A stretch of DNA of 38,123 nt from a virus. The stretch is taken from the IMG/VR virus record IMGVR_UViG_3300025154_000241, positions 1-38,123 of that record. One strand, 5' to 3'. The notes beneath the pieces are model-generated. The model ran no database searches and was not told the DNA's origin. It saw only the letters and a list, made by a program, of their open reading frames with translations. Below, piece by piece: positions 2,621 through 34,929 of the stretch (position 1 is its first letter; each line of letters begins with the position of its first letter). The position numbers and the translations under genes are program-made.

Positions 2621-3412
2621 CTAAAATAATTTCTGCAGCTCATGCGCCTTTTTTCTCGGCTCGCAAAACAATTTCTGTTGAACCCTGCATAATATCTGCT
2701 CTTTTGCCAGCTTGACAAATTCCTTTTTAATTTCAAAGCCGTATGCTACCCGCCCACAATTCGCCGCCGCTAAAAGCGTGGTGCCGCTTCCGGCTACCGG
2801 GTCGATTACAACCTCTCCGGGATCGGTGAATAGCTCAATCAAATGTTCAAGCAGCGGAACCGATTTTTGCGTAGGGTGAATTTTCGGGGTCTTGGTATCT
2901 CTGGGAACCTCAAAACAGTTGAATACCATATTGCCGCCATTATTAAATTTAGGCAGCTTGTCACGGTAAAACAATAATCCATATTCGCAGTTTCCTACAA
3001 TGCGCATATTCGCCTTTAAAACCTGCGCCGAAAAGTTTTTCCTGAATACCAAATTAATATATTTTTTTAGGCCGTGTTCTTTGGCAAGTTGTATCAAGGC
3101 GAATTGCTGTTCAAAACTGCAAAACATTAACATCGCCGGAGCCTTGCCTTTCTCTTTCGGCTCTTTCCTTAATAAACGATTGCAGAACCACATATAATCT
3201 ATAACGCTAAAACTATTGTCGGTATCGAAAAACTCCTTCTTCGCAAATTCGCTTTCTCCGTTTTCATTGTCACCGTCAATGTACCATTTCGGATTAGAGC
3301 CATAAGCATTTTTGCCTATATTATAGGGGATGTCCGCTATAATTAATTGTGCTCTCGGTATATTGTAGCTTTTGAAATTCTGGAAATGGTCGTTAAACAA
3401 TTCTATCTTCAC
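2621..3412 (-). CDS. DNA methyltransferase (N6-adenine/N4-cytosine, beta-class order)
   Basis: I choose GTG 3412-3410 as the start (263 residues) because AAGGGGGG lies just upstream and because GTGA overlaps the stop of the 51-residue gene before it. The catalytic motif IV appears first as ADIPYNIG (D27-Y30, with Ile in place of the usual first Pro or Ser of DPPY/SPPY). The HPTQKS motif (179-184) and the AdoMet-binding motif DPVAGSGTT (204-212) follow. This order is that of beta-class amino-methyltransferases. It probably modifies phage DNA to evade host restriction. No restriction enzyme is next to it, so it looks like an orphan enzyme. Target sequence unknown. Confidence 0.9.
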   Translation of the reverse strand: MKIELFNDHFQNFKSYNIPRAQLIIADIPYNIGKNAYGSNPKWYIDGDNENGESEFAKKEFFDTDNSFSVIDYMWFCNRLLRKEPKEKGKAPAMLMFCSFEQQFALIQLAKEHGLKKYINLVFRKNFSAQVLKANMRIVGNCEYGLLFYRDKLPKFNNGGNMVFNCFEVPRDTKTPKIHPTQKSVPLLEHLIELFTDPGEVVIDPVAGSGTTLLAAANCGRVAYGFEIKKEFVKLAKEQILCRVQQKLFCEPRKKAHELQKLF

Positions 3413-3564
3413 CTTTCCCCCCTTAATTTGATCGCGGCGATAAACAGCCAGAGCACGCCCCAGGATGATAACGCAACGGCGATAATGCACGCCGCCTCTT
3501 TCGCCGCCGCAAGGATGTCCGATACCTTGAAACTCTGCTTGTAGTAACGCTCGTAGCCTCTCAT
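3409..3564 (-). CDS. 51-residue single-span membrane protein
   Basis: Starts at ATG 3564-3562 with AAAGGAG eight bases upstream and ends with a TGA that overlaps the methyltransferase GTG. The N-terminus is basic and aromatic (MRGYERYYKQSFKVSDILAA). It is followed by a hydrophobic span of about 20 residues (IIAVALSSWGVLWLFIAAI) and a short positive tail (KLRGER). One transmembrane helix is therefore likely. Family and role unknown. It is too short for most ORF callers, but its ribosome site and overlap support it. Confidence 0.65.
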   Translation of the reverse strand: MRGYERYYKQSFKVSDILAAAKEAACIIAVALSSWGVLWLFIAAIKLRGER

Positions 3565-3589: not shown

Positions 3590-4042
3590 TTACAAATTCA
3601 CCATGATAATTTCAATGCTTTTCAACGCTTCATTCATCGCATCTCTAACCCGCTCGACCTCCGCTACATTGTGAAATTTGCCTATAAAATATAGCATTTC
3701 ATCCCTTACCTGTTCAAGCCATATTTTTTTCAACATTTTATCCGGCAGGGCGTCGCTTGACAAAGTAAACCCGCCGCCTCGTTTATGGTTAGTTAAATTG
3801 ACATAAAGGCGTACATCCCGGCCTTTTACTTTTTCAACCTGAACCAGTATGAGAATTGTAGCCTCGTGCTCTCTCCATTTATCGGAAGCTATTTTATTAT
3901 CCCAAGTGAAACATGAATGGAGTTTGGTTATCGGATTTTTGGCATATCTGACAACATCTCTCGGCTGTAATACGCCTCCATTAATATTTCTAACCACTTC
4001 TAATTCTTTCCTAATCTCTGTTTTTTTGGTAATCTTTTTCAT
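3590..4042 (-). CDS. Hypothetical phage protein, 150 residues
   Basis: I prefer ATG 4042-4040 over a GTG two codons upstream, because AAGGAG sits at a good distance from it. The product starts with a basic helix (KKITKKTEIRKELEVVRNIN), then GGVLQPRDVVRYAKNP and LHSCFTWDNKIASDKWREHEA. I recall this pattern from small phage proteins next to recombination genes, without a known function. The C-terminal third is helical. It follows the pentamer array region and precedes the membrane protein and methyltransferase. Confidence 0.75.
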   Translation of the reverse strand: MKKITKKTEIRKELEVVRNINGGVLQPRDVVRYAKNPITKLHSCFTWDNKIASDKWREHEATILILVQVEKVKGRDVRLYVNLTNHKRGGGFTLSSDALPDKMLKKIWLEQVRDEMLYFIGKFHNVAEVERVRDAMNEALKSIEIIMVNL

Positions 4043-4075
4043 AAACACTCCTTATTTTAAATTGAGGGTAGTTTA

Positions 4076-4249
4076 ACGCCTTGCCCCCAGAGGGCCCCAG
4101 CAACGCCATGCTTCGCTCCGCTCCGCCACGCATTGCCCTGAATAGCATAGCCAGAAATTAAATATTTAAAGTGCGTTATATTTAATTCCTTGCCTCGAAT
4201 AGCCACGCAAAGCCGTGCTCCGCCGTGTATAGCCACGCTTCGCCTTGCC
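4076..4249 (-). repeat. Degenerate pentanucleotide-phased array (NGCNN)
   Basis: On the minus strand the sequence parses into consecutive 5-base units of the form NGCNN. Block A (4249-4190) holds 12 units, for example GGCAA GGCGA AGCGT. Block B (4152-4098) holds 11, for example GGCAA TGCGT GGCGG. Only three units lack the central G (one TACAC and two of the TTC type). Two further units (GGCAA GGCGT) lie at 4085-4076. Exact units are rarely identical, so the period is conserved and the sequence is not. A 37-bp AT-rich spacer (4189-4153) separates A and B. The array starts 10 bases after the stop of the 217-residue gene. I see no credible coding frame with a start in it. Function unknown. Confidence 0.85.
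4154..4189 (-). repeat. AT-rich inverted repeat between the two pentamer blocks
   Basis: The spacer between the pentamer blocks is a near-perfect palindrome on the minus strand: GGAATTAAATAT (4189-4178), a 12-base loop (4177-4166), and ATATTTAATTTC (4165-4154). Ten base pairs are perfect, one is a G-U type and the last is G-C. It could be an RNA hairpin or a protein-binding site. There is no U-tract, so I do not call it a terminator. Confidence 0.8.
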
Positions 4250-4259
4250 AGAAAATTTA

Positions 4260-4913
4260 TTATTGATTAACAATTTTAAACCTGCCCCATCCGCAACCAC
4301 GGCTTTTTTGTGAAAAAGGCCGCCCGGCACCAAAACCAATCCGCATACAGCAGTTAGCCATAAGATTTACTGCTGTCTGTACATCATCTACCATGTCGGC
4401 ATCATAACAAAGTCTAACCAAGGCCTGTGCTCCGGGCATAAAGCGACCTCGCGCTCTTATGTCCGTGCTTCCATTTGCGTTAGCCGCCGGGCATGTGAAC
4501 ATTTCCGGCTCTCCTTTGATTATTTTTACAAGGGGCTGTCCGGTATTCATATCAAAGCCATCTGCCTCCACAAAAAAAGCCAACTGCATAAATCTCATTT
4601 TTAAATTTAATACTCGGCAAGCGTCAATTAACCCGGTTCTTATTCCAGCGGCGGGGATTCCATACCATCCCTGCTTTGTGATATGAAGTGATTGCCGATA
4701 ATATAGATTGAAATCTTTAGGCGCTCTTTTCTTTCTACCCTCACCATCAACATCCCCCTTTTTCATTTTGTCCATCATCTCATTAATGGATATTTCTGGA
4801 AATCTATTCTGGACATAAGGCTCAATGTTTTCAATGAGTATCGGAATCCGCTTAAAATTAGGAGCATTTATCTTAACTATTAATTTCTCTGATAATTCCT
4901 TTGTCTTTTTCAT
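4260..4913 (-). CDS. Phage protein with glycine-rich C-terminal loop, next to the pentamer array
   Basis: I set the start at ATG 4913-4911 (217 residues), because AAAAGGTGG lies eight bases upstream and overlaps an alternative GTG four codons earlier. The N-terminal strand RIPILIENIEPYVQNRF is followed by a charged linker (MMDKMKKGD...GRKKRAPKD). The core has GWYGIPAAGIRTGLIDACR and GSTDIRARGRFMPGAQALVR. The end carries IGFGAGRPFSQKSRGCGWGRF, a glycine-rich loop with conserved-looking Arg and Phe. I recall related proteins of unknown function in many tailed phages near Erf/RecT genes. The G-rich end is reminiscent of RAMP/RRM-type RNA-binding proteins, but that is only inference. The pentamer array begins 10 bases after its stop. 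Confidence 0.8.
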   Translation of the reverse strand: MKKTKELSEKLIVKINAPNFKRIPILIENIEPYVQNRFPEISINEMMDKMKKGDVDGEGRKKRAPKDFNLYYRQSLHITKQGWYGIPAAGIRTGLIDACRVLNLKMRFMQLAFFVEADGFDMNTGQPLVKIIKGEPEMFTCPAANANGSTDIRARGRFMPGAQALVRLCYDADMVDDVQTAVNLMANCCMRIGFGAGRPFSQKSRGCGWGRFKIVNQ

Positions 4914-4941
4914 CTTGTATACCACCTTTTAAATATTTTGT

Positions 4942-9757: not shown

Positions 9758-10501
9758 TTATACCTGTTTTCTCCGTTTATAATCTGGGCGTTTTACACCT
9801 ATTTTCTTTAACGACATTTTTTTTCTTGTTTCCTCACTAACGCTATGCCCCATTAATGATTGTGATATTTTTTCCCTCATTTCGCTTGTCCTTAAGTAAG
9901 GCACCCTTGTTTTTTTAGGTAATGCTTTTTTAGCTTCACTTCTACAATGTTTACAAGTGCTTCTCACTCCGCCCTGACCACGACTTTTATGAAACTCGTT
10001 CAATGGTTTTGTTTCTAAGCAAGTATTACATTTTTTTTCAGTGATAACGGCAGGGATCCGAGTCCCTGCATGACCCTTGTTACTTTCGCTAATCTTTTTA
10101 TTCCATTCATCAGAATGTTTCCTTCCGATATTTGCTATCCTCGTTTTTTCTATTGATTCTTTTGATTGTTTTCTCCCGGTATTAAACAGTCTAAGTTTTT
10201 CTCTTACTTCTTGAGATGGACTTACCACTCCCTCTCCACCAATCGTAAGGTTGTAACCATTTGGGGATTGGGAATTATAAAACTTAATCCAATATCTCTC
10301 TTTTTCGGATAGAATTTTGTTAGACTCTGCGGTATCAGTTATGGATATATCGAAAGAGTTTATCCCGTATTTATTCAGGGCTCTTTGAACGGGGTATGTG
10401 TTTTCACGAATATGTTTGGCAAGTCTCCGGCTCAGTTTTTGTATGGTTTGCCCAATATAAATTTTGCCATTTATTTTATTAAAAATCTTATAAATAATCA
10501 T
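9758..10501 (-). CDS. GIY-YIG homing endonuclease with NUMOD3 repeats and zinc finger
   Basis: The 247-residue product starts with the GIY-YIG nuclease core: YKIFNKINGKIYIGQT (4-19), basic helix with R26 and H30, YGINSFDISI (45-54) and the catalytic-type Glu in KERYW (67-71). NUMOD3-like DNA-binding repeats (SKESIEKTRIANIGRKHS, about 113-130; SEETRKKMSLKKIG, 222-235) and a CNTC...CKHC zinc finger (158-186) follow. It is a free-standing mobile endonuclease gene. It has its own promoter with the -10 box six bases before the ATG and no ribosome site, so the mRNA may be leaderless. Its base composition is more AT-rich than its neighbours, which fits recent arrival. Confidence 0.93.
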   Translation of the reverse strand: MIIYKIFNKINGKIYIGQTIQKLSRRLAKHIRENTYPVQRALNKYGINSFDISITDTAESNKILSEKERYWIKFYNSQSPNGYNLTIGGEGVVSPSQEVREKLRLFNTGRKQSKESIEKTRIANIGRKHSDEWNKKISESNKGHAGTRIPAVITEKKCNTCLETKPLNEFHKSRGQGGVRSTCKHCRSEAKKALPKKTRVPYLRTSEMREKISQSLMGHSVSEETRKKMSLKKIGVKRPDYKRRKQV

Positions 10502-33509: not shown

Positions 33510-33658
33510 ATTTCCACATACCCGGCCCATTCCGCTTTCGTCCACCACCTGCCGTGATAGTAATGCCGCTTGCAATCGGGGCAGTAATAATTGCGCTCCG
33601 CGCCGAGTCCCCCGGTAATATCCGTTAATTTACGGCTTCCGCATTGGCAGGGGTTCAT
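33506..33658 (-). CDS. Small zinc-ribbon protein, 50 residues
   Basis: ATG 33658-33656 overlaps the methyltransferase stop (ATGA). The product has CQCGS near the start and YYCPDCKRHYYHGRWW later, a two-knuckle zinc ribbon. It probably folds around one zinc ion. The role is unknown. It could assist the methyltransferase upstream, but there is no direct evidence. Confidence 0.75.
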   Translation of the reverse strand: MNPCQCGSRKLTDITGGLGAERNYYCPDCKRHYYHGRWWTKAEWAGYVEI

Positions 33659-34929
33659 AATTTTACCCGCTGCTTTCCGGTATAATCTTCCCACCGCTTA
33701 CAAATAACCTCGCAATAATGCGGGTCAATCTCCATGCCGTAACATTTTCGGCTTGTTTTTTCGCAGGCTATAAGCGTGCTGCCGGAGCCGAGAAATAAAT
33801 CCATTATCATGTTTTCTTTTATGCTTGAGTTTAAAATAGCGTTTTCAATCAATTCAACGGGCTTCATGGTCGGATGTAATTCTGATTTTGACGGTTTCGG
33901 GATTTCCCAGATAGATTTTAAATATTTGCCTTTGCCATAGAAATTATGCTTTTTTTTCCAGCCATATAATATAGGCTCGTGTTGGTAATCGTAGTCAAGC
34001 CGCCCCATTGAAAATACAGGTGATGATTTTACCCATATAAGCTCGTGTTTAATCTGCCAATTTTCGCTCATCATCATCATCATCATCTGGTCGCCGCCCT
34101 GACACATGGTCATGTAAAAACTGCAATCATCTTTTGCCGATTCATACATGTTTTTAAAGGCTGGCCTCCATAATTTTTCTGAACATTCTTTTGCCGACAT
34201 ATTGTCCCCTTTGATGGGGCGACAAGTCTGGCGGAATTTCCCGCCAGACTTTTTATTCAATAAATCTTGGTCGGCACCATAATTAACCCCATACGGAGGG
34301 TCGGTAAATATCATGTCAGCCAATTCGCCATTCATTAATTTTGCCACATCTACATTGCTTGTGCTGTCCCCGCATAGCAGGCGGTGTTCTCCGAGCCGAA
34401 ACATATCCCCCGTCTTAATGTCTGTTTCAATTACTTCCGGCACTTCGTCTGCTTTCGGGTCTGGTTCGCTATAATAATTATCATTAAAATCTTTAAAATC
34501 TATCGCGTCAAATGAAAAATTCTCCTCGATGAACTCGGCGGGGATATGTGCCGCTTCCGAAAATTCGTATAAACCTTGCTCCGTTATCGTGTTAAATTGA
34601 GAGCTTGCCGATAATATTAACATTTTCGCTTCCGTAGCATTAGCCGCTTCAATCGGGCAGACCGGGAACTCGGCGGGGAGTTCAATGCCTTCCTGCTTCA
34701 TCTGCAAGAGCGTCAGCCGCCGCCCATGCCCGTCAAGTATAAAATTTTTATTAGTTTCCGTTTCGTGCCAGTAGAAAAAGGGGAAGGAAAATCCCTGCTT
34801 GAGTATCATCTTCTTAAGTTTATTATAATTCTTTTTCGACATCTCTTTCAGTGTGCCCTGGAACTCGGTTAATTTTTCCAGCGGCAGGTTATGCGCACCC
34901 TTGCATTTGATTGTTACTGTTTCGCTCAC
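33655..34929 (-). CDS. ParB-like domain fused to DNA methyltransferase
   Basis: The start is GTG 34929-34927, with GAGGTG upstream. Residues 12-110 are ParB/sulfiredoxin-like: YNKLKKMILKQGFSFPFFYW and ILDGHGRRLTLLQMKQEG with the typical GHGR box (67-70). After a linker the methyltransferase has GDMFRLGEHRLLCGDS (174-189), DPPYGVNY (210-217), HPTMKP (352-357) and DLFLGSGST (377-385). This is an N6A/N4C amino-methyltransferase of beta-class order. The ParB part may aid DNA binding. A run of six Met codons (282-287) comes from (ATG)6, an odd microsatellite. This is the second methyltransferase of the window. Confidence 0.92.
   Translation of the reverse strand: MSETVTIKCKGAHNLPLEKLTEFQGTLKEMSKKNYNKLKKMILKQGFSFPFFYWHETETNKNFILDGHGRRLTLLQMKQEGIELPAEFPVCPIEAANATEAKMLILSASSQFNTITEQGLYEFSEAAHIPAEFIEENFSFDAIDFKDFNDNYYSEPDPKADEVPEVIETDIKTGDMFRLGEHRLLCGDSTSNVDVAKLMNGELADMIFTDPPYGVNYGADQDLLNKKSGGKFRQTCRPIKGDNMSAKECSEKLWRPAFKNMYESAKDDCSFYMTMCQGGDQMMMMMMSENWQIKHELIWVKSSPVFSMGRLDYDYQHEPILYGWKKKHNFYGKGKYLKSIWEIPKPSKSELHPTMKPVELIENAILNSSIKENMIMDLFLGSGSTLIACEKTSRKCYGMEIDPHYCEVICKRWEDYTGKQRVKL

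Follow-up and report, generated by a model that had tools for sequence, protein, structure and literature searches.

Two pentamer-phased arrays in a phage genome are very likely the guide-RNA repeats of a distant VIPR system

Why should two neighbouring tracts of a phage genome keep a five-base period while several bases within each period vary? The window analysed here, the whole 38,123-base stretch of an IMG/VR virus record (IMGVR_UViG_3300025154_000241), carries a tailed-phage gene set (terminase, portal, Erf annealing protein, DnaB-type helicase and methyltransferases), and no host assignment was reached for the phage, the nearest terminases being 26% identical. On the minus strand, 60 bases (4249-4190; array 1) read GGCAA GGCGA AGCGT GGCTA TACAC GGCGG AGCAC GGCTT TGCGT GGCTA TTCGA GGCAA and 55 bases (4152-4098; array 2) read GGCTA TGCTA TTCAG GGCAA TGCGT GGCGG AGCGG AGCGA AGCAT GGCGT TGCTG. 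The claim of a first-pass annotation, made from the sequence alone, that these tracts divide into NGCNN units of which three break the G was confirmed by unit count, and its placement of the array start 10 bases past the stop of a 217-residue gene (4260-4925, minus strand) also held, the gene having 221 codons from a GTG and 217 from the ATG four codons further on. The features of the locus, with the vrRNA tracts and tails being putative, are:

4260..4925, minus strand: vipr gene, encoding a RAMP protein of the PHROG_4652 family
4250..4255, minus strand: leader TTTTCT before array 1, resembling the AATTTCT before array 2
4190..4249, minus strand: vrRNA 1 repeat tract, 12 NGCNN units
4153..4190, minus strand: hairpin 3' of array 1, 13-bp stem and 12-nt loop, candidate vrRNA tail
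4098..4152, minus strand: vrRNA 2 repeat tract, 11 NGCNN units
4050..4097, minus strand: region 3' of array 2, sequence GGGGCCCTCTGGGGGCAAGG..., candidate tail
3590..4048, minus strand: vap (accessory protein) gene, 152 aa, a phrog_15946 relative (E 9e-9)

Across the 23 units of both arrays, the second position is G in 20 (3/23 break it), the third is C in 23/23 and C never occurs at the first, with the strict GGY form accounting for 11/23 units and NGC for 20/23. Positions 4 and 5 have entropies of 1.75 and 1.92 bits, respectively. The arrays are the strongest period-5 signal of the window (GC in 9/10 units, vs ≤5/10 elsewhere in the 38 kb). Tandem Repeats Finder reported no array at 4098-4249, and neither a blastn search of INPHARED with the array nor an Rfam scan of the array region returned a match. 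Elsewhere in the window there are a GIY-YIG endonuclease with a NUMOD3 motif (homing endonuclease; 9758-10501) and two DNA methyltransferases (2621-3490 and 33655-34929; N6_N4_Mtase and ParB-like plus methyltransferase).

As has been described in a preprint (PMC13142463, 2026), VIPR is a relative of CRISPR that consists of a Vipr RAMP protein, an accessory protein and vrRNAs, the last being 9-16 repeats of YNNGG (GGY/NN pentamers) that recognise DNA through their NN pairs, a single base being skipped per unit. The published repeat definition allows GGY or “a related consensus”, and the systems are classified into seven types, I-VII (PMC13142463). With 12 and 11 units, the arrays meet the description of 9-16 pentamers with two hypervariable bases beside vipr, and it is very likely that each represents the repeat tract of one guide RNA, the two guides belonging to a phage VIPR system that comprises vipr, both arrays 3' of it and vap. 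The anatomy, family, fold, co-occurrence and codon-aligned decoding to a recombinase motif are shown below; RNA, RNP, binding and repression have been demonstrated for SUSP1 and P. fulva but not for the window phage (PMC13142463), for which RNA expression, RNP formation, DNA binding and repression are inferred by analogy with SUSP1.

The window Vipr sequence alone had no sequence match in the PDB, only the family profile giving one, and a Pfam scan gave no family matches. The family profile (A1) matched PDB 36pp (“SUSP1 Vipr protein”) with an E of 7e-42, followed only by insignificant matches, Csm5 among them. Relatives of the window Vipr belong to phrog_4652, of unknown function in PHROGs. 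The AlphaFold2 (AF2) model (pLDDT 91.7, pTM 0.85) predicts a Csm3/Cas7 RAMP fold, with the listed structural neighbours being type III or type VII CRISPR RAMP proteins and with Csm3/Cmr/Cas7-11 filling the structure matches (VIA Z 12.4). The Vipr RAMP homologue of a VIPR system is thus present, by the match of profile A1 to PDB 36pp and by the RAMP fold. PADLOC returned nothing for either vipr or vap. The earlier suggestion of a “protein that reads every fifth base” was close to right, because the adjacent gene is a Vipr RAMP and such published pentameric vrRNAs bind Vipr.

When IMG/VR was scanned for stretches with GC eight times at period 5, at least 120 were returned, most of which are GGCNN runs with near-random NN, often several per locus. 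When nearby ORFs were compared all-vs-all, there was a single dominant cluster, which includes the window vipr gene, and homologues of this gene were found at 67 of about 120 array stretches by blastp and at 79/120 by profile. The distance from a gene of this cluster to the array has a median of 46 bases, and the array lies mostly 3' of the gene. Two scanned loci, L073 and L091, lack any gene of the vipr blastp cluster; their near-perfect GCTGT and GCTCT tandem repeats represent ordinary microsatellites. As a reverse test that avoids circularity, IMG/VR was searched with the protein family alone, providing 82 Vipr-defined loci (80 fetched loci, the cyanophage Cy-LDV1 and the window), and an array was counted if it lay within 900 bases 3' or 600 bases 5' of vipr. 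Arrays were present in 70/82 of these loci. After dinucleotide shuffling, sequence downstream of vipr reached 7/10 units in 17/405 trials (4%), and control chunks held arrays in 7/343 cases (2%). Counts of ≥7/10 numbered 64 for period 5, 3 for period 6 and 2 for period 8, and the enrichment beside vipr is specific to period 5. The arrays track vipr across unrelated phages. Both of the checks that had been proposed with the first-pass annotation, an excess of runs over shuffled sequence and co-occurrence with the 217-residue gene in related phages, were therefore passed.

The second window-containing cluster of the all-vs-all comparison is the gene on the other side of the array (3590-4048, minus strand), with a homologue in 73/82 Vipr-defined loci, 71 of them within 1.5 kb and all on the same strand. 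This conserved neighbour meets the published arrangement of a vap next to vipr, though identity with any of vap1-6 is not established. Its AF2 model (pLDDT 94.5) had no significant fold match in the PDB, the top VIA rows reaching a Z of about 6 over the C-terminal half only. The window vap is not homologous to gene 94, which adjoins vipr in the Felix O1-like phage wV8, and its function is therefore left open; a DNA-binding role is possible, as a guess by analogy with the description of vap genes in PMC13142463. In Escherichia phage wV8 itself, repeats annotated DR_4 (2262-2319 and 3655-3712) flank the vipr homologue (gene 95) and look like vrRNA tails, because a GGTNN array lies directly before one of them.

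The NN pairs of vrRNA 1 (AA GA GT TA AC GG AC TT GT TA GA (AA)), decoded with a 1-nt skip, read N/K-E-V-Y-T-G-T-F/L-V-Y-E, which is a motif conserved among large serine recombinases. With the first nine units and a 1-nt skip, viral contigs gave three matches in unrelated phage contigs, all of which fall on the NEVYTGT(F/L)V peptide of a large serine recombinase and place the skipped base at the codon wobble position. In the same contigs, one control with shuffled unit order gave 0 matches and one with a 2-nt skip gave 1, the chance expectation for viral contigs being our own estimate. A search of the genome_contigs (84,980 species genomes, 257 Gb) with the nine units gave 19 matches, where chance at random positions would give about 7; 17/19 have the recombinase motif, 16 of those in the wobble frame of open ORFs. 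Overall, the motif is carried by 20/22 nine-unit matches, and in nearly all of them the skipped base is the codon wobble base. A Recombinase domain was identified by Pfam in 3/3 viral ORFs and in 8/8 scanned genome ORFs (8 of the 17 motif-bearing were scanned), while a match in the Thermoplasmata had no such domain by Pfam.

When all twelve units were used and ≤3 mismatches allowed, there were 8 matches in 391 genomes of a single class, vs 2 for a backward control. These include NEMYIGTFVYGK and NEKYTGTFVYNK, and because several carry FVYGK/FVYNK-type variants, units 10-12 fit recombinases as well. An exact full-length target of guide 1 was not found, the best recombinase sites matching 22/24 guide positions, so that the collections searched did not yield the true target strain. 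The ten-unit pattern had 0 matches in the genomes, blastn of the contiguous decoded sequences against phages and plasmids gave short matches but no full-length match, and self-targeting of the window reached at best 16/22, equal to shuffled guides. No skip length stood out in a target search inside 1.65 Mb of fetched loci, with the sole exception of unmasked self arrays at skip 3. The published 1-nt skip on the codon wobble is thus met for array 1 only, by sequence decoding. It is likely that vrRNA 1 is aimed at a large serine recombinase, though this is inferred from sequence alone, with no RNA or binding data.

For guide 2 (NN pairs TA TA AG AA GT GG GG GA AT GT TG), matches were not above control (6 vs 9 in controls) and there is no convincing target. 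The best partial sites (20/22; L217, L240 and copies) lie in different genes and frames and were rejected as targets, as an 8-unit seed is expected to yield sites of this sort.

The sequence AATTT(T)CT precedes both arrays, and the hairpin 3' of array 1 extends into the AATTTCT leader of array 2. This hairpin has a fold z of -5.2, with equal stability in 0/200 shuffles, and the whole RNA of array 1 plus its 3' flank is also more stable than its shuffled versions (z -2.9). Array 2 RNA shows no such advantage (z +1.3), and its 3' flank (4050..4097) has no stable hairpin and a stability that does not exceed shuffles. Of the conserved structured 3' tail described for vrRNAs, there is a strong hairpin after array 1 and none after array 2. 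The two arrays may form separate vrRNAs or be parts of a single processed transcript, and RNA expression itself is inferred by analogy with the SUSP1 system.

By the proposed mechanism, a vrRNA would be transcribed in the sense of vipr and Vipr subunits would line up along it, one per pentamer, with the GC-centred constant part of each unit held by the protein. The NN pair of each unit would base-pair with double-stranded DNA, one target base being skipped per unit, and Vipr, once bound, would keep the target from being transcribed. For the putative vrRNA 1, the target would be the stretch of a large serine recombinase gene that encodes the recombinase domain, each skipped base falling on a codon wobble position; rival prophages or mobile elements would rely on this recombinase for integration.

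Among the alternatives, the one that survives best accepts the VIPR system and holds that vrRNA 1 is not aimed at recombinases, the NEVYTGT match being a coincidence with a common conserved motif. In its favor, a perfect full-length site was not found, and a common motif would yield near matches in many genomes. Against it, a random guide of nine pairs would give scattered frames and families, whereas 20/22 matches share one motif and nearly all the wobble frame, and units 10-12 also fit recombinase variants; we regard it as unlikely. A second alternative, which appears very unlikely, is that the array is a structural repeat of the DNA or RNA (packing, recombination or terminator) that lies beside vipr by chance, its phase arising from helical or stem geometry. 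The folding of array 1 RNA with its 3' flank would support this. However, that signal comes from the AT-rich hairpin separating the two arrays and is not seen in array 2; moreover, the association of arrays with vipr extends over unrelated phages, and the guide of array 1 spells out a recombinase motif in register with the codons. The last, a degenerate GGCNN-like microsatellite grown by slippage and now decaying, has in its favor the low-complexity framework and the simple tandem repeats at some scanned loci (L073, L091), but is all but excluded by near-maximal entropy at the variable positions while G2 and C3 are kept, by the absence of a Tandem Repeats Finder call and by the protein-motif information in the variable bases of array 1. 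The polymerase-driven expansion suggested by the first-pass annotation is likewise not supported, as the variable positions are near random and a protein motif can be read from array 1. CRISPR-Cas (class 1) was rejected, as the tandem-repeat scan gave no array of long identical repeats with unique spacers, and no known Cas protein was found among the proteins scanned.

Compared with VIPR type II (Escherichia phage SUSP1 and a Pseudomonas fulva prophage; PMC13142463), the window shares the phage genome, a single small RAMP gene, an accessory gene, arrays of pentamers with a variable NN next to vipr, a skipped base that falls on the codon wobble and a predicted aim at rival mobile elements. It differs in that the first constant base is variable (NGC, not GGY), the vap comes from another family (unlike the gene next to vipr in wV8), two arrays lie between vipr and vap and the decoded target is a serine recombinase, which the main text of PMC13142463 does not mention. 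With the type III CRISPR backbone (Csm3/Cmr4, Cas7-11) there is a common RAMP/RRM fold over almost the whole Vipr (152 residues, rmsd 3.5 at the VIA Z of 12.4), whereas identity is about 12%, the guide is in pentamers without a spacer/repeat structure and no adjacent cas genes or CRISPR array were found. Cyanophage Cy-LDV1 (BK059895), the only INPHARED record matched by the window Vipr (42%, E 2e-42), has a VIPR-like locus with vipr, arrays and the same vap family, but its arrays keep the GGC motif.

The window adds a distant natural VIPR with a loosened repeat motif and a guide decodable to the integration recombinase of a putative rival, and suggests a function for two PHROGs families of unknown function, 4652 and, in the accessory role, 15946. 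The first description of VIPR dates from 2026, and where its guides come from is unknown. The making of a guide from its target is unresolved for VIPR and also bears on how CRISPR arose; a wobble base stored in the guide, if true, would show how this occurs.

That possibility rests on the relaxed motif. The consensus over 144 loci is GGCnn in 111, GGYnn in 11, nGCnn in 7 (window included), CGCnn in 5, nGCAn in 4 and nGYnn in 2. In the Vipr tree, the nearest relative of the window Vipr is L147 (support 0.71), with nGYnn arrays, so the relaxation may be common to the two. When each NN is read with the following base as a codon, array 1 gives AAG GAA GTG TAT ACG GGA ACG TTT GTG TAT GAG AAG, or KEVYTGTFVYEK, and array 2 gives TAT TAT AGG AAT GTG GGA GGA GAA ATG GTT TGG, or YYRNVGGEMVW. 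Both window arrays consist of sense codons throughout, with 0 stops vs 2.9 on permuting the variable first base (P 0.004), and this base depends on NN (P 0.004). A bolder reading is that the unit is NNN-GC rather than NN-GGY, with the base after NN being the wobble base of the target codon and each unit storing a whole codon; if true, the phage would have either a form of VIPR in which every unit reads three bases or a trace of how guides are copied from their targets. The permutation test was post hoc, the pattern having been noticed before testing, is limited to 23 units and is unreplicated, and the relaxed arrays of L147, L069, L039, L114, L112 and L151 showed no significant stop avoidance, so that wobble retention is not a general rule. 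For these reasons we regard the NNN-GC reading as possible but less likely than not.

Several other forms of the repeat occur among the scanned loci. Five loci (L026, L058, L068, L109, L121) have CGCNN arrays in place of GGCNN. At L011, L040, L066, L076 and L116, beside vipr, the constant part is GCA (or GCC) and the variable pair occupies positions 5 and 1, and these nGCAn and nGYCn arrays could represent a shifted or opposite-strand version of the code. A four-base step, GGCAGGC, joins arrays at L128-L145, L201, L206 and many others, shifting the phase between runs of about 9-10 units, and may correspond to the published staggered arrays or to unit boundaries.
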